45,990 nt of DNA from Chloroflexota bacterium (GTDB taxonomy: Bacteria > Chloroflexota > Anaerolineae > VGOG01): positions 1 through 45,990 of the forward strand of contig VGOG01000006.1 of NCBI GenBank assembly GCA_016875995.1, in the 5' to 3' direction. Positions 18,705 through 39,897 of this stretch are shown here, in pieces. Every line of letters starts with the position of its first letter. Positions within the stretch are counted from its first letter, which is position 1. The notes under the pieces are model-generated. The model saw only the letters and a list, made by a program, of their open reading frames with translations. It was not told the DNA's origin and did not search any database. The position numbers and the translations under genes were made by a program.

Positions 18705-19661
18705 TTATACCCCCTTCTCCTCTCTCGCGTAGGGCAGCCCCAGGGCAGCCGGGGCGCCCACCCGCTTGCTGAACGCCTCCCACCAGGTGATGATCACCAA
18801 TACCAGGATGGTGAAGGCGTAGGGTAACATCCCCAGGAAGGCGGCAGGGATGGTGGTCCCTGCGGCCTGCATGCGGAATTGCACGGCGCTGATCCCCCCG
18901 AAGAGCACCGCCCCCACCACCGCGCGCAGCGGATTCCAGGTGGCAAAGATCACCAGGGCGACGGCGATCCACCCCCGTCCGGCAGTCATCCCCTCCGTCC
19001 ATCCCGGCGTGTAGGCCAAGGACAGGTGTGCCCCGCCCAGCCCCGCCAACATCCCGCCCAGGATGGTGTAGAGATAACGGGTGGTGGCCACGTTCACTCC
19101 CATGGCGTCGGCGGCCTGGGGGTTCTCGCCGACCGCCCGCAGGTGGAGGCCAGGCCGGGTCCTGTGCAGGTAGAACCAGGCGATGAGCACCAGCAGGTAC
19201 ATGGCATAGACCAGCAGGTCCTGATCGAAGAGGGCCTTACCGAGAACGGGTATGGAGGAAAGGCCCGGTATTTCTAGCTTGCCGAACTTCGGCCCGATGA
19301 GACCCACCAGGGGGCTGCCGCCTGGACCAAGCCGCTGCCCCAGGAAGCTGGCCAGCCCGCTGCCGAAGATGGTGAGGGCCAACCCGCTGACCGTCTGATC
19401 GGCCCGCAGGGTGATGGTCAGAAAGGCGTGGATCGAAGCCACAAGACCGCCCACGACGATCCCCGACGCCACCCCGGCCCACGCGCTCCCGGTCCTGTAG
19501 GCCACGGCGAAGGCGGACACCGCCCCCATGATCATCATCCCCTCCACTCCCAGGTTGAGGATTCCCGATCGCTCGGTGTAGATCTCGCCGACGGTGGCAT
19601 ACACCAGCGAAGTCCCGGCCCGAACGGTGACGGCCAGGATGGAACCAAGAAGTGCGATCAC
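18705..19661 (-). CDS. ABC transporter permease, BMP/nucleoside type (NupQ-like)
   Basis: 318 aa from GTG 19661, chosen for GGAGGGG seven bases upstream. A polytopic membrane protein of the branched-chain/ribose permease superfamily: [101 protein letters not shown]. The EExNxGxxGxM-like N-terminal part is typical of the second permease of Bacillus NupNOPQ-type guanosine importers. Four bases separate it from the other permease gene, and asnS follows. It forms the membrane pore with the product of 19666-20823. Confidence 0.93.
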
Positions 19662-19665
19662 TTTT

Positions 19666-20823
19666 CTACCCCTCCATTTTTGAGCAGGGGGGCTGGGGTG
19701 CGGAGGCGCGGAGGTGAGCTCTCCCTTGCTCCTCTGCTCTCTCGCTCCTCTGCTCCCTTGCTCCTCTGCTCGTGAGGCGGATACGGTACTGAGTGAACAG
19801 GCTTCCGCCCAGCACGAAGAACAGGATGGCCCCTTGCAACACCAGGGCCACCGCTGCGGGGAGCTGCATGGTGATCTGAATCTGATCGCCACCCACCAGC
19901 AGCCCGGCCAGGAGGATGGCGACCACCAACACTCCCCAGGGGTTCAGTCTTCCCAGCCAGGCCACGATGATGGCGGTGTAGCCGTAGCCCACGGTCAGCC
20001 CCTTCTGCAGGCGGTGGGAGATGCCGGCCACCTCGGACATCCCCGCCAGGCCGGCCAGCCCCCCGCTGAGGATCATTACCAGGATGATGTTGCGCACGAT
20101 GCTGATCCCGGCATAGTTCGCCGCCCTGGGATTCTCGCCGATCACGCGGATCTCGTAGCCCCACTTGGTGCGCCTCAACACAATCCAAATCAAAAGGCCC
20201 GCCACCACCGCGAAGGCCAGCCCCAGGTGGATGCGAGTGCCGGGCAGTCGCGGCAGCCGGGCTGCTTGTGGAAACTGCGCGGTGCCAGGAAACCCGTAGC
20301 CATGAGGGTCCTTCCACGGCCCGTAGAACAGGTGCTCCACCCACAGGATGGCGATGTAGTTCATCATCAACGAGGTGATGATCTCGTTGACGCGGACGTA
20401 CGCTTTGAGCAAGGCTGGGATCAGGCCCCAGAGCGCACCGCCGAGGAAGCCGGCCACGACCATCGCTGGCAGCAACAGGGGGCCTGGAATGCGATCTGCC
20501 CAGAAGAGCGCCACCCCCGCAGCGGCGATCCCCCCCACCGCCAACTGCCCCTCGGCGCCGATGTTCCAGAAGAGCATGCGGAAGGCAACGGACACCCCCA
20601 GGCCGCACAGCATCAGCGGGACGGCTTTGACCATCGTCTCCGAGACGTTGTACTTGCCGCCGAAAGCTCCCAGGGCCATCGCCTTGTAAGTCGTCAGCGG
20701 GTTGGCCCCGGCCAAAGCCAGCAACACCGCCCCTGCGAGCAACGCCAAGACCACCGAGGCGATGGGTACCAGGAAAGCAATGAGGCGAGAATATTCGAGG
20801 CGTTTTTCGATGATAAGTCGCAT
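19666..20823 (-). CDS. ABC transporter permease, BMP/nucleoside type (NupP-like)
   Basis: 385 aa from ATG 20823. Polytopic: MRLIIEKRLEYSRLIAFLVPIASVVLALLAGAVLLAL, FWNIGAEGQLAVGGIAAAGVAL, VNEIITSLMMNYIAILW, WGYEIRVIGENPRAANYAGI, LSGGLAGLAGMSEVAGI. Same superfamily as the following permease and the usual first permease of such systems. The normal C-terminus seems to be around FTQYRIRL; the last ~35 residues (TSRGAREQRSERAEEQGR and onward) are encoded by an octamer repeat array and are not expected in the family. Confidence 0.92.
   Translation of the reverse strand: MRLIIEKRLEYSRLIAFLVPIASVVLALLAGAVLLALAGANPLTTYKAMALGAFGGKYNVSETMVKAVPLMLCGLGVSVAFRMLFWNIGAEGQLAVGGIAAAGVALFWADRIPGPLLLPAMVVAGFLGGALWGLIPALLKAYVRVNEIITSLMMNYIAILWVEHLFYGPWKDPHGYGFPGTAQFPQAARLPRLPGTRIHLGLAFAVVAGLLIWIVLRRTKWGYEIRVIGENPRAANYAGISIVRNIILVMILSGGLAGLAGMSEVAGISHRLQKGLTVGYGYTAIIVAWLGRLNPWGVLVVAILLAGLLVGGDQIQITMQLPAAVALVLQGAILFFVLGGSLFTQYRIRLTSRGAREQRSERAEEQGRAHLRASAPQPPCSKMEG
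19721..19776 (-). repeat. Octamer array within the 3' end of a permease gene
   Basis: On the plus strand: CTCCCTTG, CTCCTCTG, CTCTCTCG, CTCCTCTG, CTCCCTTG, CTCCTCTG, CTCGTGAG. It is complementary in type to the array at 8269-8316. It is read in frame as RGAREQRSERAEEQGR-like residues. Confidence 0.85.
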
Positions 20824-20849
20824 GGTTCCAACTCCAAAATCCAAAGTTC

Positions 20850-20937
20850 AAGGGACAAGGGACTAGGGATCAGGGACAAGGGATCAGGGGGACCTTGCCA
20901 ACGTCCCTAGTCACTTGTCCCTGGTCCCTAATCCCTT
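20850..20937. repeat. Two opposed heptamer arms between permease and ATPase genes
   Basis: Arm 1 (20850-20891): AAGGGAC, AAGGGAC, TAGGGAT, CAGGGAC, AAGGGAT, CAGGGGG. Arm 2 (20903-20937): GTCCCTA, GTCACTT, GTCCCTG, GTCCCTA, ATCCCTT. The arms are complementary and could form a long hairpin. The ATPase stop (TGA, 20913-20911) is in the second unit of arm 2. Confidence 0.85.
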
Positions 20938-22443
20938 TGTTCCCGCCATCATCAACCCAATCTCTTCAATATCCGCTTCCTCGGCATCCACAATGCCCAT
21001 GATCTCGCCTTCGTACATCACGGCGATGCGATCGCTAACGCTCAGCAGTTCGTCCAGGTCCTCCGAGATCAGCAAGATGGCCGCGCCCTCTTCCCGCTGC
21101 TTGAGGAGAAGATTACACACTGACTCGGTGGCCCCGATGTCCAACCCCCGCGTGGGGTGTACGGCTACCATCAGCCGTGGGCCGGCGCTGATCTCGCGGG
21201 CCAGGATGGTGCGCTGGAGGTTGCCGCCGGACAGGAGCTTGACCGGGGTCTCCTGGCTCGGCGTGAGGATGCTGAAGGCCTCGATCAGCCTGGCCGCAAA
21301 CCGGGTGATGGCCAGGCGGTCCAGGAACAGCCCCCGGGCCAGGGGCGGGTCCCGGTAGCTCTTGAGAATCACGTTGTCGCTGACCGCCAGATTGGGTATC
21401 AGGCCCATTCCCAGCCGGTCCTCCGGCACGTGGCTCACCTGCTCCCGGATCACCCGGTGGGGGGAACGGTTGGTCAGGTCGCAATCGGCAATGAGTACGC
21501 ATCCATCCGCTGTCTTCCGCAGCCCGGTAACCACCTCGGCCAGCTCTCGCTGCCCGTTCCCTGCCACCCCCGCGATTCCCAGAATCTCCCCCTGGCGGAT
21601 GGCGAACGAAACGTCCCTCAGAGCCGGCAGCCCCTTGTCGTTGAGCGACCGCAGGTTGCGGACCTCCAGGACCACCTCGCCTGGTTCGACAGGTGCCTTT
21701 TCCATCCGGAAGAGCACTTCCCGGCCAACCATCATCCGTGCTAGTTCCTCCTTGGTGGTCTGGTCGGTGTCCACCGTGGCCACTACCCTGCCGCCGCGCA
21801 AGACGGTGATCTGATCGGAGATGGCCATCACCTCGCCAAGTTTGTGGCTGATAAAGATGACGGCCTTCCCCTCGTCGGCCATGCGCCGCAAGGTGACGAA
21901 TAGCTCTTCCACCTCCAGGGGGGTGAGCACGGCAGTGGGCTCGTCCATGATCAGGATGTCCACCCCACGATAGAGCATCTTCAGGATCTCGACCCGCTGC
22001 TGCTCCCCCACCGAGAGCTGCCAGATGCGGGCTCGGGGGTCCACCTGCAGACCATACTGCCTGGAGAACTCGGCGATCTTGCGCTCGATGCGCGCCATAT
22101 CGAGGAAGAAGCCCGGTGCTTTGAGCCCCAGGATGACGTTCTCGGCCACTGACTGCGGCTCGACCAGCATGAAATGCTGATGCACCATGCCGATCCCCAG
22201 GTCAATGGCGTCGCGTGGCGATTGCAGGTCGGCCCTTTGCCCTCGAATGTAGATCTCTCCCTCGTCGGCCCGATAGAGGCCAGAGAGGATGTTCATCAGG
22301 GTGGTCTTGCCTGCTCCGTTCTCGCCCAGGAGGGCATGAACCTGGCCCGCCTGCACCTCCAGGTCAACGCGATCGTTGGCCAGCACGCCGGGGAAACGCT
22401 TGGTGATTCCCCGCATTCTCACCAATGGGGTATCTGTGGACAT
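20911..22443 (-). CDS. ABC transporter double ATP-binding protein, nucleoside type (NupO-like)
   Basis: 510 aa from ATG 22443. Two ABC domains. The first (about 7-235) has Walker A GENGAGKTT at 40-48, signature LSVGEQQRVEI and Walker B ILIMDEPTAVL. The second (about 255-495) has a degenerate Walker A (GVAGNGQRELAE), LSGGNLQRTILARE and VAVHPTRGLDIGA. An intact first and degenerate second site is normal for sugar/nucleoside importers of this type. It energises the two permeases encoded next. The final residues TKGLGTRDK are encoded by heptamer repeat units, and the stop lies in the repeat. Confidence 0.95.
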   Translation of the reverse strand: MSTDTPLVRMRGITKRFPGVLANDRVDLEVQAGQVHALLGENGAGKTTLMNILSGLYRADEGEIYIRGQRADLQSPRDAIDLGIGMVHQHFMLVEPQSVAENVILGLKAPGFFLDMARIERKIAEFSRQYGLQVDPRARIWQLSVGEQQRVEILKMLYRGVDILIMDEPTAVLTPLEVEELFVTLRRMADEGKAVIFISHKLGEVMAISDQITVLRGGRVVATVDTDQTTKEELARMMVGREVLFRMEKAPVEPGEVVLEVRNLRSLNDKGLPALRDVSFAIRQGEILGIAGVAGNGQRELAEVVTGLRKTADGCVLIADCDLTNRSPHRVIREQVSHVPEDRLGMGLIPNLAVSDNVILKSYRDPPLARGLFLDRLAITRFAARLIEAFSILTPSQETPVKLLSGGNLQRTILAREISAGPRLMVAVHPTRGLDIGATESVCNLLLKQREEGAAILLISEDLDELLSVSDRIAVMYEGEIMGIVDAEEADIEEIGLMMAGTKGLGTRDK

Positions 22444-22462
22444 CTCCTCATCCTGCGATTTT

Positions 22463-22596
22463 GTTCGTAGTGACGACTTTAGTCGTCCACAATGGGCCAG
22501 GGCGACTGAGGTCGCCACTACAAACCCCTGTTCGTAGTGACGACTTTAGTCGTCCACAATGGGCCAGGGCGACTGAGGTCGCCACTACGAACCCCT
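22463..22596. repeat. Two tandem 67-bp REP-like palindromic elements
   Basis: Copies at 22463-22529 and 22530-22596 differ at one base. Each starts GTTCGTAGTG and ends CACTACRAAC (terminal inverted repeats), with two inner hairpins built on GACGACTTTAGTCGTC and GGCGACTGAGGTCGCC. A diverged third copy is at 44502-44565. They sit between the binding-protein and ATPase genes. Confidence 0.9.
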
Positions 22597-22601
22597 GTAC
22601 G

Positions 22602-22641
22602 AAAAGGGTTCTGGCAGGCGGCTGGCCACCTACCAGAACCC
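22602..22641 (-). terminator. Intercistronic hairpin with U-tract after the binding-protein gene
   Basis: Minus strand: GGGTTCTGGTAGG pairs with CCTGCCAGAACCC (13 bp, one G-U), loop of 10, then TTTT. It follows the binding-protein stop by 18 bp and probably attenuates read-through, so that binding protein is made in excess over ATPase and permeases. Confidence 0.7.
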
Positions 22642-22658
22642 CCTTGACGATCTATGGC

Positions 22659-24815
22659 CTATTTGGGGATGATGCCGACGACCCCTTCGACCAGCCAGTC
22701 GAAGGCCAGCTTCTCCTCGTCGGCCATGACCACCCCGTCTGGCACCCGCAGCTCGCCCGTGTTGTCCTTGATCGGGCCGTGGAAAACGTCGAAGGTGCCG
22801 GCGATGATCTCCTGTTTCTTCTGCTCGATGAGCGCCTTGGCGTCATCCGGCACCGCCGGCCCGAAGGGTGCCAGGTCCAGCAGCCCCTCGGCCAGTCCCC
22901 ACCAGACCGGGGTGTTGGTCCAGGTGCCATTCATCACCGCCTGAACCGCCTTCTTGTAGAAGACGCCCCAGTTCCAGATGGGCGAGGTGAGCAGGGCGTT
23001 GGGCGCCACGGCGGGCACGTAGGCATTGTAGCCGATGGCGTAGACGCCGTTCTCTTCGGCCAGCTTGTCCGGCTCGGTGGAGTCGCTCTCGCGGGCGATG
23101 ACGTCGCATCCCAGGTCCAGCAGCACCTGGGCCGCCTCCCGCTCCTTCACCGGGTCCACCCAGGTGAAGATCCACACCGAGTGCACTTTGACATCCGGGT
23201 TGACCGAGCGGGCGCCCAGGGTGAAGGCGTTCATGTTGCGCACCACCTCAGGAATGGGATAGGGAGCGATGTAGCCGAGCACGTTGGTCTTGGTCACCTT
23301 GCCGGCGGCGATGCCCGCCAGGTACCACCCCTGGTAGCCCCGGCCGTCGTAGATGCCGGCGTTCTCGGCCGTCTTGTAGCCGGTGCAGTGCTCGAAGATT
23401 GTGTCCGGATACTCGGCGGCCACCTCAATGACCGAGTCCATGTAGCCGAAGGAGGTGGCGAAGATCACGTCGTACCCCTTCTCGGCGTAGTCACGGATGA
23501 TGCGGGTTGAGTCAGGGCCCTCCGCAACCAGCTCGCTGTAGGCCGTCTCCACCCCCAGCTCCTTCTCCAGGTAGAGGCGTCCCTGGTCGTGGGCGTAGGT
23601 CCAGCCCAGATCGCCCGTGGGGCCGACGTAGACGAAGGCCACCTTCGGCTTCTCCACCTCTGTGACCACCGGCGGCTTGGCCGGGGCCTCGCCGACGACG
23701 CCCTCCACGAACCAGTCCATGCTGAGCAGCTCTTCGGCAGTCATGCTCACGCCAGCCGGTACGGAGAGCTCACCATTCTGGCCTTTGATGGGGCCGGTGA
23801 AGACGGTGAAGATAGTGGCTTCACCTTTCTTGAACCTGGCTATCTCGGCGTCGGCGATGTTCTTCACGTCGTCCGGCACCTTGTCACTCAAGGGAGCCAG
23901 GTCCACGATGCCGTCCTGCCAGCCACCCCAGTACTGGTGGGTCTTCCAGGTGCCGTCGAGGACAGCTTTCACCTGCTCCACGTAGTAGACACCCCAGTTC
24001 CAGACCGGACTGGTCAGCACCGTGTCCCCCACGAACTGGCTCATGTCCGAGTCGTAGCCGATGCTGACCTTCCCTCGCTCCTGGGCGGCCTTCTGGGGCT
24101 CGGTGGTGTCCTGGTGCTGGGCGATGACGTCACAACCCTCGTCCAGCAGGGCCACGGCCGCCTCTTTCTCCAGCACCGGGTCGAACCAGGTGTTGGTCCA
24201 CACTACGTGCACCGTGGCCTTCGGGTTGGCGGCGCGCACCCCCAGGGTGAAGGCGTTGATCCCCCGGACGACTTCGGGGATGGGATAGGCGGCCACGTAG
24301 CCAATCTTGTTCGCCTTGGTCATCTTGCCAGCCACCAGGCCAGAGACGTAACGAGGTTCCTCGATCTTCCCGAAATAGGTGGCTGAGTTCTCGGCCGTCT
24401 TGTAGCCGGAGCAATGCATGAAGTATTTGCCGGGGAACTCGCCAGCCACGGTGACGGTGGGGTCCATGAAGCCGAAGCTGGTGGTGAAGATGACGTCGTA
24501 GCCCTTCTGGGCGTAGTCACGGATGACCCGTTCGGCGTCGGGGCCTTCGGGCACGTTCTCGATGTAGGCCGTTTCGACCCTGTCGCCGAACTCTTTTTCC
24601 ACCATCAGCCGCCCCTGCTCGTGGGCCCAGGTCCAGCCCAGGTCGCCGATGGGCGCCACGTAGACGAAGGCCACCTTCAGCTTCTCCGGCGGTGGTGGCG
24701 GCGTAGGCGTTGGCGGCACCGGCGTCGGCGTCGCTGCTGGTCGGCAAGCCGTGACCAGCAGAGCCACGACCGTCACCAGGGCCAATAAAGCCCAAAATCT
24801 CTTGTTCTTGAACAT
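22659..24815 (-). CDS. Fused tandem BMP-family solute-binding lipoprotein
   Basis: 718 aa, about twice the usual ~350 aa of this family. A lipoprotein signal ends VALLVTAC (Cys24), then a Thr/Pro linker. Two full BMP (PnrA/NupN-like) domains follow: about 46-375 (LKVAFVYVAPIGDLGWTWAHEQGRL, GYDVIFTTSFGFMD, YPIPEVVRGINAFTLG, VWNWGVYY, FTGPIKGQNGEL) and about 392-715 (PKVAFVYVGPTGDLGWTYAHDQGRL, GYDVIFATSFGYMD, YPIPEVVRNMNAFTLG, IWNWGVFY, FHGPIKDNTGEL). BMP proteins bind nucleosides outside the membrane for ABC import; substrate here is inferred. TAAGGAGG precedes ATG 24815, and a near-consensus promoter lies at 24916-24944. Confidence 0.95.
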   Translation of the reverse strand: MFKNKRFWALLALVTVVALLVTACRPAATPTPVPPTPTPPPPPEKLKVAFVYVAPIGDLGWTWAHEQGRLMVEKEFGDRVETAYIENVPEGPDAERVIRDYAQKGYDVIFTTSFGFMDPTVTVAGEFPGKYFMHCSGYKTAENSATYFGKIEEPRYVSGLVAGKMTKANKIGYVAAYPIPEVVRGINAFTLGVRAANPKATVHVVWTNTWFDPVLEKEAAVALLDEGCDVIAQHQDTTEPQKAAQERGKVSIGYDSDMSQFVGDTVLTSPVWNWGVYYVEQVKAVLDGTWKTHQYWGGWQDGIVDLAPLSDKVPDDVKNIADAEIARFKKGEATIFTVFTGPIKGQNGELSVPAGVSMTAEELLSMDWFVEGVVGEAPAKPPVVTEVEKPKVAFVYVGPTGDLGWTYAHDQGRLYLEKELGVETAYSELVAEGPDSTRIIRDYAEKGYDVIFATSFGYMDSVIEVAAEYPDTIFEHCTGYKTAENAGIYDGRGYQGWYLAGIAAGKVTKTNVLGYIAPYPIPEVVRNMNAFTLGARSVNPDVKVHSVWIFTWVDPVKEREAAQVLLDLGCDVIARESDSTEPDKLAEENGVYAIGYNAYVPAVAPNALLTSPIWNWGVFYKKAVQAVMNGTWTNTPVWWGLAEGLLDLAPFGPAVPDDAKALIEQKKQEIIAGTFDVFHGPIKDNTGELRVPDGVVMADEEKLAFDWLVEGVVGIIPK

Positions 24816-24915
24816 CTTCTTTCCTCCTTAAAAAATCTGTCGTGCTGAAACTCTCTTCCACTGAGAATTGAGGCTTCTGGCAATCACCTCCTTTCGCTCG
24901 GCTAAAGGCACTTGA

Positions 24916-24944
24916 AATATATCACGAAAGCTCGCTTTTGTCAA
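24916..24944 (-). promoter_or_regulatory. Strong sigma-70-type promoter for the nucleoside-transporter operon
   Basis: Minus strand TTGACA (24944-24939), 17-bp spacer, TATATT (24921-24916). The leader is about 95 nt and contains a full-length Shine-Dalgarno sequence (AAAGGAGGTGAT, 24895-24884) well ahead of the one used by the lipoprotein. Confidence 0.85.
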
Positions 24945-29086: not shown

Positions 29087-29875
29087 TCACTGGATGGCCT
29101 GCCGCACGCGCGTGGACAAGACCCCAAACTCAGGACTGTACAGCATCTCCAGGCGGCGAGGCCGGGGGAGAGGAACGGAGACGGTCGCTTCGATGCGGCC
29201 CGGCCGGGAGCTCATGACCAGGATGCGATCGGCCAGAAAGATGGCCTCCTGGATGCTGTGAGTGACCATGACCACTGTCTTGCGCTTCGCCTCCCAGATG
29301 CGCAATAGCTCCAGGTTCATCTGCTCCCTGGTGATGGCGTCCAGGGCGCCGAAAGGCTCGTCCAGCAGCATGATGGCCGGATCGTGGACGAGGGCCCGAG
29401 CGATGGCCACCCGCTGCTCCATCCCCCCTGACAGCTCGTGGGGATAGGCGTCCTCGAAGCCCTCCAGCCCCACCAGCTTCAGGAGTTCCCCGGCCCGCCT
29501 GCGAGCCTCGGCTGCCTCCACCTTTTGGATCTCCAGCGGCAAGGTCACGTTCCTGAGAACAGTGCGCCAGGGCATCAGATTAGCTTTCTGGAACACGAAG
29601 CCGATCAGGCGGCGAGGGGCGGTCAGCAGCGCGCCGTCCAGGTAGACCCTGCCACTCGTGGGCCGCACCAGGCCACCCAGAACCTGCAGCAAGGTTGACT
29701 TGCCGCATCCCGATGGGCCGACGATACACAGAAACTCCCCGGCGTCCACTTGCAAAGAAACACCTTCCAGGGCTTCGAGGGAACTCTGCTGCCCTTGAAA
29801 AGTCACGGTTATCTCGTCGGCTGCCAAAACGGGGATCATATCAGGATTTGACTTGCTGGCAGGGTAGATGGTCAT
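29087..29875 (-). CDS. ABC transporter ATP-binding protein of the predicted riboflavin importer
   Basis: 262 aa, SsuB/TauB-type ATPase. Walker A GPSGCGKST at 53-61, Q-loop FVFQKANLMPW, signature ELSGGMEQRVAIARAL, Walker B IMLLDEPFGALD, H-loop VTHSIQEAIFLADR. It is the third gene behind the FMN riboswitch (permease, binding protein, ATPase) and would drive that importer. A heptamer hairpin array (29882-29972) fills the gap to the binding-protein gene. By sequence alone it could serve nitrate, sulfonate or pyrimidine transporters; the riboswitch decides. Confidence 0.94.
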   Translation of the reverse strand: MTIYPASKSNPDMIPVLAADEITVTFQGQQSSLEALEGVSLQVDAGEFLCIVGPSGCGKSTLLQVLGGLVRPTSGRVYLDGALLTAPRRLIGFVFQKANLMPWRTVLRNVTLPLEIQKVEAAEARRRAGELLKLVGLEGFEDAYPHELSGGMEQRVAIARALVHDPAIMLLDEPFGALDAITREQMNLELLRIWEAKRKTVVMVTHSIQEAIFLADRILVMSSRPGRIEATVSVPLPRPRRLEMLYSPEFGVLSTRVRQAIQ

Positions 29876-29881
29876 TTCCGC

Positions 29882-29972
29882 TCTCGTATTTCGTATTGCG
29901 TATTCCGTTTGAGGTTACGCAATACGCACTACGCAATACGCAACACGCACTACGCGATACGCAACACGTCAT
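29882..29972. repeat. Opposed heptamer arms between binding-protein and ATPase genes
   Basis: Arm 1: TCTCGTA, TTTCGTA, TTGCGTA, TTCCGTT. After TGAGGTT, arm 2: ACGCAAT, ACGCACT, ACGCAAT, ACGCAAC, ACGCACT, ACGCGAT, ACGCAAC, ACGTCAT. The binding-protein stop (29971-29969) lies in the last unit. A homologous element in the same transcriptional sense is at 33741-33824. Confidence 0.88.
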
Positions 29973-31006
29973 TGGGATTCAACGAACCGATTGGTAAACA
30001 TTGTCTCCACGTCCACCTCGGCGTCAATGAGCCCAATCCGACGTATGAAGCGCTGGGACTCCTCCCAGGCGGCGCGGTCGGAATGGCCCAATCGCTCGCC
30101 CTGCCAGAACTTTATTGACTCAAGCAGGACAGCCTTTTGCAGGGCCTCGTTATCCCCAGCGATCTCTGGCACGTATTTCTTGCAGATGGCGAAGGCTTCG
30201 TCGGGGTGTTCGATGGTGTATCTCAGCCCACGCAGCATCGCCCGCACCAGCTCCTGGACCAACTCCGGCCGCTCAGCGATGGTCTGCTGGTTGGTGATGA
30301 GGCCGTTGGAGACCAGGTTGACCCCCCCAGCCCCCCCAACGTTGGAGGGGAGTGGGGGGGCGGCCACGTAGATCACGTCTATCGCGTATCCCGCCTGGCG
30401 CAATTGGACCGGTTCGTTCAGGGCGTAGCACACGGCGGCATCCACCCGACCCTCGGTGAGGCTGGCCACCTGGGTGTAGCCGATGACCTGCAGGTTGACC
30501 TGGGCCTCGTCTATTCCTTCCGCGTGAAGGAGGGCCCGCCAGCCGATGTAGCTGGCCCCTTCGGTAGCCGGTATCCCCACCGTCTTGCCCACCAGGTCCT
30601 TCGCCCCATTGATGCCCTTTTCTTTCAAAGAGACCACGCACACGGGGAAGCGGCGATACCAGTTCAGAACGTAGACCACCGGCAGCCCTTGTGCCCGGGC
30701 CAGGATGACTTGATCCCCGCTGGCCACCGCGAACCGCAGTTCACCAACGCCCACCAGCTTGAGCAAGTCCGTCTCCATGCCGTAGTCGAACCGGACTGCC
30801 AGGTTCTCCTCGGCGAAGTAGCCTTTGTCCTCGGCCACGTAGAAGGGAGCGAACTGGACGTTGGGGATGAAACCCATAGCCAGAGTGATCGTCTCCGGCG
30901 CGGGCAGCGTCGGTGTGGCCGTTGGTTGGGCCAGGCTACAGCCGCCGAGGGCGATGATAACCAAACACAACAACGGATTTAGAATTAAACGGATTTTCGT
31001 CTCCAT
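29969..31006 (-). CDS. ribY: Solute-binding lipoprotein of the predicted riboflavin importer (RibY-like)
   Basis: 345 aa from ATG 31006 (TTGGAGGT upstream). Lipoprotein signal LVIIALGGC (Cys23). The mature part is an NMT1/THI5-like periplasmic-binding fold: ITLAMGFIPNVQFAPFYVAEDKGYFAEENLAVRF, LRFAVASGDQVILARAQGLPVVYV, GKTVGIPATEGASYIGWRALL, ASLTEGRVDAAVCYALNEPVQL. THI5-like proteins often bind thiamine precursors, but the upstream FMN riboswitch points to a flavin; a RibXY system of this kind has been described in Chloroflexi from comparative genomics. Residues about 217-231 (PPLPSNVGGAGGV) derive from a G/C-run palindrome inserted in frame. Confidence 0.9.
   Translation of the reverse strand: METKIRLILNPLLCLVIIALGGCSLAQPTATPTLPAPETITLAMGFIPNVQFAPFYVAEDKGYFAEENLAVRFDYGMETDLLKLVGVGELRFAVASGDQVILARAQGLPVVYVLNWYRRFPVCVVSLKEKGINGAKDLVGKTVGIPATEGASYIGWRALLHAEGIDEAQVNLQVIGYTQVASLTEGRVDAAVCYALNEPVQLRQAGYAIDVIYVAAPPLPSNVGGAGGVNLVSNGLITNQQTIAERPELVQELVRAMLRGLRYTIEHPDEAFAICKKYVPEIAGDNEALQKAVLLESIKFWQGERLGHSDRAAWEESQRFIRRIGLIDAEVDVETMFTNRFVESQ
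30321..30360. repeat. C-run/G-run palindromic insertion inside ribY
   Basis: Runs of seven C, an AACGTT-centred palindrome and runs of G. Read in frame, it adds about 13 residues. A similar insert occurs in the gene at 42863-44176. Confidence 0.6.
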
Positions 31007-31077
31007 TGTGAAACCTCCAATTATCCCGATCATTAGCATGTTCCCCCAGACATCAACGCAACCGCATCCCCACCCCA

Positions 31078-31119
31078 GGCCCTAGTCCCTTATCCCTTGT
31101 CCCTAGTCCCTTATCCCTA
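31078..31119 (-). repeat. GTCCCTT-type heptamer array at the ribX stop codon
   Basis: Plus strand: GGCCCTA, GTCCCTT, ATCCCTT, GTCCCTA, GTCCCTT, ATCCCTA. The ribX stop TAG (31119-31117) is in the last unit. Same family as arm 2 of the array at 20850-20937. Confidence 0.87.
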
Positions 31120-31962
31120 CTTTCTCCACGAAAGCAACAAGCTTTCCAGGGCAGCTACGGCCGCGTACAGACTGACGGCGATAGCCACCAGGGTGAACAG
31201 GGCCACGAACATGAGGGGGGTGTCGAACAGCCCGCGAGCCAGGTTCACCAGGAAGCCCAGTCCGCGGTCGGCGCCCACGAACTCCCCCACCACCGCCCCG
31301 ATCACCGACAGGGTGACTCCCACTTTCAACCCTCCCAACAGGACAGGCAGGGCGGCCGGCACCTCCAGCATGGTGAACACCTGCCAGCGCGTGGCCTCCA
31401 GGGAGCGCATCAGGTCAACCAGGTCCCTTTCCGCTGAGCGGATACCGACGATGGTGTTGATCAGCACGGGGAAGAAGAGCGTCAGGGCACAGACCAGAAC
31501 TTTGGATAGGCTGCCGAAGCCGAACCAGATGACCAGCAGCGGAGCCAAAGCGACGATGGGGATGGACTGGGAGGCCACGATGTAGGGCAAGAGGACACGC
31601 TCTACGAGCCTCGACTTGGCCAGGACGTAGCCCAATAGGGTGGCGGTAGTCAATCCCAGAGCCAATCCCCCGAAGATCTCCACCAGGGTCACCTGGGTGT
31701 GGCGCCACAGAGTGCCGTCTCTGACTACGATCAGGAATTTGGCGTACACTCGCCCTGGCGAGGGCAGGAAAAAAGGCGGATAGTCGCCCAGGCGCACGAC
31801 CAGCTCCCAGAGGCCGAGGAAGAGGAGTAAGGCCAGGGGGACGAGCAGATACTCCGCCCGCTTACCGGCGGGGATGGAAAGTCGGTTCGCCAGCCTCGAT
31901 CTCCCTCCTGCCCGTGCCAGTTGTACCCCGGTTTCTATTTCCCTGGAAAGTTGAGCCTCCAT
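31117..31962 (-). CDS. ribX: ABC permease of the predicted riboflavin importer (RibX-like)
   Basis: 281 aa from ATG 31962 (GGGGGTGG ribosome site, freed only if the riboswitch terminator is not formed). SsuC/TauC-type permease: LLVPLALLLFLGLWELVV, FFLPSPGRVYAKFL, LVEIFGGLALGLTTATLLGYVLAKS, EAA-loop region IPIVALAPLLVIWFGFGSLSKVLVCALTLFFPVLINTIVGI, ALPVLLGGLKVGVTLSVIGAVVGEFVGADRGLG. First gene after the FMN riboswitch. It would form a homodimeric channel with the ATPase at 29087 and the lipoprotein at 29969. Confidence 0.92.
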   Translation of the reverse strand: MEAQLSREIETGVQLARAGGRSRLANRLSIPAGKRAEYLLVPLALLLFLGLWELVVRLGDYPPFFLPSPGRVYAKFLIVVRDGTLWRHTQVTLVEIFGGLALGLTTATLLGYVLAKSRLVERVLLPYIVASQSIPIVALAPLLVIWFGFGSLSKVLVCALTLFFPVLINTIVGIRSAERDLVDLMRSLEATRWQVFTMLEVPAALPVLLGGLKVGVTLSVIGAVVGEFVGADRGLGFLVNLARGLFDTPLMFVALFTLVAIAVSLYAAVAALESLLLSWRK

Positions 31963-31975
31963 CGTTCCACCCCCG

Positions 31976-32010
31976 AAAAAACAACCCCGAAGACCTGTTG
32001 GCCCTCGGGG
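31976..32010 (-). terminator. Riboswitch expression-platform terminator
   Basis: Minus strand: CCCCGAGGGCC, loop AACA, GGTCTTCGGGG (11 bp with two G-U), then TTGTTTTTT. It sits between the FMN aptamer and the ribX ribosome site, as expected for transcriptional attenuation by bound FMN. Confidence 0.92.
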
Positions 32011-32060
32011 CGTATTCATACGATTTCGGGCAAGGCTTACCAGCCTGCCGCTATCTCGCT

Positions 32061-32215
32061 GACCCTCTCCCATCCGGACTATACCGTCGGCTCTGGCCTC
32101 TCACCAGATCAGCCTTGCGGCTCGCGGGCTCGGAACCAGCTAGTCGCTAGTTCCATACCGCCGATCGGGAATTGGCTCCGCACTGCGCTGAGAACCTCAC
32201 CCTGCCCCGAAGGTC
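32061..32215 (-). ncRNA. FMN riboswitch (RFN element)
   Basis: Minus strand, in order: P1 GACCTTC, GGGGCAGGGTGAGGTTC, CCAATTCCCGATCGGCGGTAT, AGCCCGCGAGC, GGTGAGAGGCC, GCCGACGGTATAGTCCGGAT, and P1' GAGGGTC (7-bp closing stem). All conserved blocks of the family are present. It controls the ribX-ribY-ATPase genes through the terminator at 31976-32010. When FMN is high, transcription should stop. Confidence 0.97.
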
Positions 32216-39483: not shown

Positions 39484-39897
39484 ATGAAAATGAAAATGAA
39501 AAGAACTCTGTGGTGCATCTTCAGTCTGGCGCTGATCCTCGGCCTCTTGCTAAGCCTCAATATGGCCGAGAGCCTGGCATCGTTCAAGAACGTCGGGATA
39601 ATCAAAGGTGATCTCGCTCCCGAAAACGCGGGGATCATCAAGGGCGACTTCGCCCCAAGCGCGGGGATCATCAAGGGCGACTTCGCCCCAAGCGCGGGGA
39701 TCATCAAGGGCGACTTCGCCCCAAGCGCGGGGATCATCAAGGGCGACTTTGCCCCAAGTGCGGGGATCATCAAGGGCGACTTTGCCCCAAGCGCGGGGAT
39801 CATCAAGGGCGACTTCGCCCCAAGTGCGGGGATCATCAAGGGCGACTTTGCCCCAAGCGCGGGGATCATCAAGGGCGACCTGGCGCCCTCCGCTTAG
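39484..39897 (+). CDS. Secreted tandem-repeat protein, nine GIIKGD-type 11-residue units
   Basis: 137 aa. A signal peptide (RTLWCIFSLALILGLLLSLNMAESLA) is followed by SFKN and nine units: VGIIKGDLAPEN, seven AGIIKGDFAPS, and AGIIKGDLAPSA to the end. The whole mature protein is repeat. AAAGGAGG ends 2 nt before ATG 39484, so ATG 39490 or 39496 may be the true start. The units are identical in protein and almost identical in DNA (only Asp-Phe TTC/TTT and Ser AGC/AGT changes), pointing to recent expansion. I recognise no family: not RTX, pentapeptide or collagen-like. Options are a surface or matrix protein, an amyloid-like beta protein, or a multi-core peptide precursor. All are guesses. Confidence 0.85.
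   Translation: MKMKMKRTLWCIFSLALILGLLLSLNMAESLASFKNVGIIKGDLAPENAGIIKGDFAPSAGIIKGDFAPSAGIIKGDFAPSAGIIKGDFAPSAGIIKGDFAPSAGIIKGDFAPSAGIIKGDFAPSAGIIKGDLAPSA
39595..39894 (+). repeat. 33-bp tandem coding repeat
   Basis: Eight copies of a 33-bp unit (GGGATCATCAAGGGCGACTT and onward) start at 39629 and every 33 bp to 39860, preceded by a diverged copy at 39595. There are no spacers, so it is not CRISPR. Confidence 0.95.

Follow-up and report, generated by a model that had tools for sequence, protein, structure and literature searches.

The nearest solved relatives of the two-domain receptor described here, for both of its halves, are AtzT and 3s99. AtzT of Pseudomonas sp. ADP (structures 6pi5, 6pi6, and 6pii) is reported as a one-domain protein with a Tat signal that binds guanine more tightly (110 nM) than adenine (2.5 uM), and 3s99 is reported as a Brucella melitensis basic membrane lipoprotein in which adenine is modelled into density (PMC6834077). 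BmpD and PnrA belong to the same Bmp family and likewise serve ABC importers as substrate-binding proteins, but they are described as single-domain receptors for nucleosides (PMC7093131). Two receptor domains in one chain are known from a different system, GlnPQ of Lactococcus lactis, where SBD1 and SBD2 stand in tandem on a 14 aa linker, differ in specificity, and feed one translocator; according to the same account, they act largely independently on the flexible linker (PMC8025302). Tandem substrate-binding domains (SBDs) and BMP receptors are each known already; listings of the open-access literature that we searched showed no paper in which the two are combined.

The window, which is the whole stretch of DNA analysed here, comprises 45,990 nucleotides of a Chloroflexota (Anaerolineae) contig (VGOG01000006.1, assembly GCA_016875995.1). 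Within it, a fused BMP gene heads an ABC-import operon with the following features:

24916..24944, minus strand: promoter-like TTGACA-17-TATATT, 11/12 match, TG before the second hexamer, ~100 bases upstream of the gene
24823..24829, minus strand: ribosome-binding site AAGGAGG, 7 bases before the ATG
22659..24815, minus strand: fused two-domain BMP lipoprotein gene, 718 aa (ORF call; ATG at 24815, stop ending at 22659)
24744..24815, minus strand: signal peptide with lipobox LVTA-C24 (aa 1-24; from sequence)
24684..24743, minus strand: Thr/Pro-rich spacer (aa 25-44; from sequence; pLDDT <50 over most of it)
23682..24683, minus strand: N-type BMP domain (aa 45-378), pocket WSFREGWHD, discriminating residues R155, G185, and H234
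23655..23681, minus strand: interdomain linker (aa 379-387)
22662..23654, minus strand: C-type BMP domain (aa 388-718), pocket WSFWENWED, discriminating residues W497, N527, and E576
22602..22645, minus strand: 20-bp hairpin followed by T's, between the receptor and ATPase genes (z -6.4)
20911..22442, minus strand: ABC ATPase with two ABC_tran stretches (Pfam; start ATG 22442 after GAGGAG)
19666..20844, minus strand: permease 1, BPD_transp_2 (Pfam)
18705..19892, minus strand: permease 2, BPD_transp_2 (Pfam; ORF as given, true start probably further in)

The fusion is one lipoprotein chain with two complete domains, as the original prediction had it. The 718-aa ORF contains two stretches of PF02608 (Bmp; E 7.8e-121, 403 bits against a cut-off of 24.1) behind a single lipobox, the conserved segments are retained in both domains as had been claimed, and the linker holds neither a stop nor a second signal peptide. 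No permease domain lies within the 718 aa, and the receptor is a separate lipoprotein. The AlphaFold model (mean pLDDT 89.2, pTM 0.55) predicts two well-folded halves whose mutual placement is unfixed. A more specific identity, as the substrate-binding protein of a putative B6 ABC transporter (NCBIfam NF047927), was rejected, as the match of 120.7 bits falls below the curated cut-off of 400.

We searched 396 genomes of the class and found one frame over both halves in 24 of them, including the genome of the window and one copy cut by a contig end (G209); a 25th fused protein comes from a Caldilineaceae contig (L067). Before domains were counted, 22 loci duplicating another locus were removed by hand, and two loci, L046 and L059, were kept out of the fused counts. 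The window protein shares 63-81% identity with 22 other aligned fused sequences, and the domain order, N then C, is invariant among the fused proteins. Three domains, arranged N-N-C, are present in two of these 25 proteins (L048, 1084 aa; L057, 1134 aa). The frame in G049 runs upstream off its contig, and the extra stretch may be the tail of a further domain; its best outside match covers 25 residues at 52% (E 0.011). Separate genes, which the original prediction named as evidence against a fusion, do exist as adjoining pairs in relatives (G014 and Caldilineaceae) but are absent from the window. These pairs, and halves similar enough to recombine, are what an assembly or gene-calling artefact joining two genes would have in its favor. 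Such an artefact is nonetheless next to inconceivable and was rejected, since the same single open frame, with its linker and without a second signal peptide, recurs in 24 genomes.

The operon has the BMP-family make-up, in which the lipoprotein substrate-binding protein adjoins a double ATPase and a pair of BPD_transp_2 permeases; the genes downstream of the receptor also include a class II tRNA synthetase. The claim that one permease pair is served is borne out. Of the 18 fused loci whose 3' flank spans 5 kb or more, 16 have the ATPase, permease 1, and permease 2 downstream. Two fused genes (G017 and G080; L017 and L055) are without adjacent transporter genes and without the lipobox cysteine. 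These same two copies adjoin adenine deaminase and dihydropyrimidinase. The promoter-like site upstream of the window gene is weak evidence alone, with four such sites found and 2.4 expected by chance. The hairpin behind the gene could be a partial terminator, through which the receptor would be produced in excess over the pump. At 22462-22598, in the gap separating the BMP gene from the ATPase gene, a 67-bp unit stands twice in tandem (98%); it is a dispersed palindromic repeat with 32 matches in its own genome, and one copy occupies the same place in G002. Elsewhere in the window we observed a second ABC import set (29087-32073; ATPase, NMT1/THI5-like binding protein, and BPD_transp_1 permease) and a 33-bp unit repeated 7.7 times at 96% (39627-39879).

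By every sequence and structure test run, including comparison of predicted structures, the window protein falls in the BMP family and in its AtzT/3s99 branch. The N half matches 3s99 with Z 45.5 and 49% identity, and the C half matches AtzT with Z 46.1 and 48% identity; for PnrA and BmpD, compared by overall similarity, the values are Z ~33 and ~19%. AtzT thus has the same fold and subfamily as the window protein, and 3s99 is, like AtzT, a single domain.

Gene neighborhoods point the same way. In eight of the 18 loci whose 5' flank reaches 2 kb or more, adenine deaminase is encoded no further than 1.4 kb 5' of the fused gene, and in four of the eight it is on the same strand. Seven of these deaminases, scanned against NCBIfam, scored 589-631 bits (cut-off 472.5); the eighth, in G020, is a tblastn match at 64%. 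In the window and nine other loci of the 18, no adenine deaminase was found near the fused gene, and in the window genome it lies on another contig. Among operons of Spirochaete single N-type receptors, 11 of 15 have adenine deaminase downstream, and the remaining four hold <4 kb there. Further neighbors are dihydropyrimidinase in three genomes (G017, G080, and G091) and adenosine deaminase in one (G209).

The original prediction called both domains nucleoside-binding and proposed a PnrA/NupN-like receptor with two nucleoside pockets. The shared Pfam family, the operon make-up, and the adenosine deaminase in the G209 locus are consistent with such a receptor. However, the base-binding AtzT and 3s99 are far closer than PnrA, BmpD, or Lbp (Z ~46 against ~33, 48% against 19% identity) and adenine deaminase is the recurrent neighbor, so we consider two nucleoside pockets very unlikely and the nucleoside label probably wrong: both halves appear nearest to receptors for free purine bases. 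The synteny with adenine deaminase suggests that the AtzT/3s99-like receptor may bind a free purine base, and for the N half adenine is the most likely one. Position 218 by itself is no proof of the base, as AtzT, with N at 218 and 220, prefers guanine over adenine.

We then compared the two pockets at nine positions in AtzT numbering: seven ligand contacts (45, 97, 98, 165, 194, 218, and 220) and two second-shell positions (139 and 169). In the order 45/97/98/139/165/169/194/218/220, the string of the N half is W S F R E G W H D, identical to 3s99 at nine of nine, and that of the C half is W S F W E N W E D, which agrees with 3s99 at six of nine. The three changed positions are 139, 169, and 218 (R155/W497, G185/N527, and H234/E576 in the window protein). 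AtzT shares S97, F98, E165, and W194 with both halves and N169 with the C half, but its guanine pocket has Y45/T139/N218/N220 where the N half has W/R/H/D and the C half W/W/E/D.

The difference between the two strings is fixed in the copies examined. WSFWENWED is found in all 25 last domains and WSFREGWHD in 26 of 27 first or middle domains, the 27th being truncated but in agreement where present. In pairs split into two genes, the N string is in 14/14 first genes and the C string in 14/14 second genes. R139, G169, and H218 are present in 60/60 single relatives (from Chloroflexota, Spirochaetota, Thermodesulfobacteriota, Bacillota, and others; L068, L069, and other BMP subtypes were kept out of this set), which suggests that the N pocket is older and the C pocket derived. 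Eleven columns separate N from C, and three of them are pocket positions. A concentration of N/C differences in the pocket was rejected, as the enrichment is not significant against conserved columns (P 0.13), compared with P 0.002 against all columns. Mean identity between genomes is 71% for the N half and 72% for the C half, compared with 54% between the halves of one protein, and dN/dS is 0.014-0.28 in ten pairs for both halves; purifying selection acts on both.

Loss of ligand residues in one half, which would have spoken against two binding domains, was not seen, though three positions change. The fusion had been proposed to provide either higher local substrate concentration or two specificities. 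Because the three fixed pocket positions differ in every fused, triple, and split copy examined, we favor two specificities. If instead both halves bound the same ligand, fusion would just raise local receptor concentration or capacity; six of the nine compared positions are equal in both halves, the pocket strings of a separate tandem, L046, do not differ between its halves, and the N domain is present twice in two proteins (N-N-C). We consider this unlikely, given that the order is always N then C, that the three differences are present in every copy, and that a lone C type persists in the genomes of one family (f50).

Under two specificities, the C half most likely takes a different small heterocycle, as judged from its residues. 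Its pocket, without R139 and with E218, is more acidic, and from this we guess at a ligand richer in hydrogen-bond donors or positive charge, i.e., amine-rich or more basic, such as a guanine-like base, 7-methylguanine, or cytosine. Around lone C-type genes (seven loci), we found no recurring purine or pyrimidine gene, by eye or with deaminase and dihydropyrimidinase queries; the most widely shared immediate neighbor, in three of the seven, is a protein of 440-504 aa.

The C type appears to be a single ancient duplicate with one origin. All C types form one clade with SH-aLRT 100, both in a tree of 118 rows (29 of them C type) and in one of 98 rows with the lone C-type genes added (35); both trees are quick ones with SH-aLRT support only, and L046, L058, L059, and other rows were left out. 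Concerted evolution of the halves was rejected because the C types form one clade. The second tree has four changes between fused and separate states; at the base of the C clade, independent fusions and fission are both compatible with it, and the first step may have been either fusion of separate genes or in-frame duplication. In G014, N and C are adjoining separate genes, and the first gene ends in the ordinary way. In Caldilineaceae, each of the 13 first genes closes with what is left of the fusion linker (...GVVGEAPGEAAPLGN or a variant of it) and not with the usual ...G-x-IPK, and the pairs that were placed in the trees nest among fused proteins with both halves. On these linker remnants and this nesting we argue for fission, for Caldilineaceae only.

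Halves have also been lost and exchanged. In G002, from the family to which the window belongs, the same operon carries just one N-type gene, behind which a scar of 25 residues (84% identical) marks the lost C half; in G021 and L119 only linker tails remain. The C half of G003 is near-identical to that of its genus-mates (dN 0.015 to L048) while its N half groups with Thermomicrobiota singles, so that the N half was, by sequence, replaced. In G176 (L059:366-2438), an N-type domain and the family linker are joined to another BMP subtype (WSDKELWGD) in the C place; here the N domain is 5' truncated in this frame, with a TAA inside the match, and adenine deaminase adjoins this domain-swapped copy too. 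Adjoining separate BMP genes in reverse order occur in L068:5923-8097 (a Mesoaciditoga record) and L069:5896-8124, with first-gene pockets WSFEEGWED and WSFFEIWYD, respectively; the L068 pair has a parallel H218E change.

In family f50, seven lone C-type lipoprotein genes occur in six genomes. The stretches examined around them held no homologue of the importer's transporter genes, and the f50 N type heads the operon in six of six N-type loci examined. Since these C genes lie apart from the N-headed operon, the two can be separate receptors, and the arrangement fits two receptors for one pump, tethered or not. In the 396-genome search, G218, G186, and G310 yielded only C-type copies, so the C type may work without the N type.

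Another reading is that the C half delivers no transport ligand and is a sensor or a docking or regulatory domain. The loss of the C half at least in G002, G021, and L119, where the N half stays, is in keeping with this, as are the lone C-type genes without an adjacent transporter gene. Yet 25/25 last domains retain the aromatic sandwich and the Ser, Glu, and Asp of the pocket, the N and C halves are under equally strong selection, and the Pfam domain scan found no signalling domain attached to the 718-aa protein. We therefore regard a non-transporting C half as improbable, more so than two halves with one ligand.

Other BMP fusions were also seen. In a 60-genome sample, eight genomes hold nine further two-domain proteins of other subtypes (L046:7788-9779, L141, L142, L143, L144, L145, L146, L149, and L151), so BMP tandems arose more than once in the class. 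Single ORFs also combine BMP with unrelated solute-binding folds (L147:1262-4444, L148:1312-4569, L150, L152, L153, L154, and L158). Their architectures include Bmp-Bmp-Phosphonate-bd (1061 aa), SBP_bac_8-Bmp-Bmp (1086 aa), Phosphonate-bd with Bmp, Bmp with Peripla_BP_6, and Bmp with SBP_bac_5, and they are possibly sensors or mixed receptors. In L156:94-2286, a BMP domain and a BPD_transp_2 permease share one 731 aa ORF.

Altogether, we think it probable that the fused protein is a dual-specificity tethered receptor for one permease. A membrane-anchored lipoprotein would carry two Venus-flytrap receptors on a short linker and hand ligand to one ABC importer, the ATPase and two permeases encoded just downstream. 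The N half would be the ancestral-type purine-base receptor, most likely for adenine, and the C half an N duplicate whose pocket was re-tuned at 139 (R to W), 169 (G to N), and 218 (H to E) and then stayed fixed. Tethering would put two specificities within reach of one permease and fix a 1:1 ratio. The ligands, the delivery of both to the same permease, and the advantage of tethering are what we infer here.

On our best reading, by analogy, the fused receptor works like the tandem domains of GlnPQ. Both have two receptor domains in one chain with a short linker, and as to the differing specificities of GlnPQ-type domains, the pocket residues differ in every copy of the fused protein. In GlnPQ, amino-acid receptors are fused to the transmembrane subunit, which is not a lipoprotein, and its SBDs belong to another family of substrate-binding proteins than BMP; the fused BMP protein is not a GlnPQ family member.

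More tentatively, we propose that the C-type domain (W139/N169/E218) may be an undescribed receptor class with its own ligand, which would have arisen by one duplication of the adenine receptor in Chloroflexota and since moved among fused, adjacent-gene, and stand-alone forms serving the adenine importer, with the docking pocket deciding which of two chemically different heterocycles the one permease imports. The finding marks an uncharacterised pocket variant in a family usually labelled "nucleoside-binding," and for this BMP branch we suggest the annotation "adenine/purine base." On the question of why some importers tether their receptors, the tandem example that has been well studied is GlnPQ. 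In the present family, one receptor pair occurs fused, split, unlinked, tripled, and halved among related genomes with homologous permeases, so that the effect of tethering on specificity and rate is directly testable. If the proposal is true, nature would have run the experiment of tethered versus untethered receptors several times in one transporter family.
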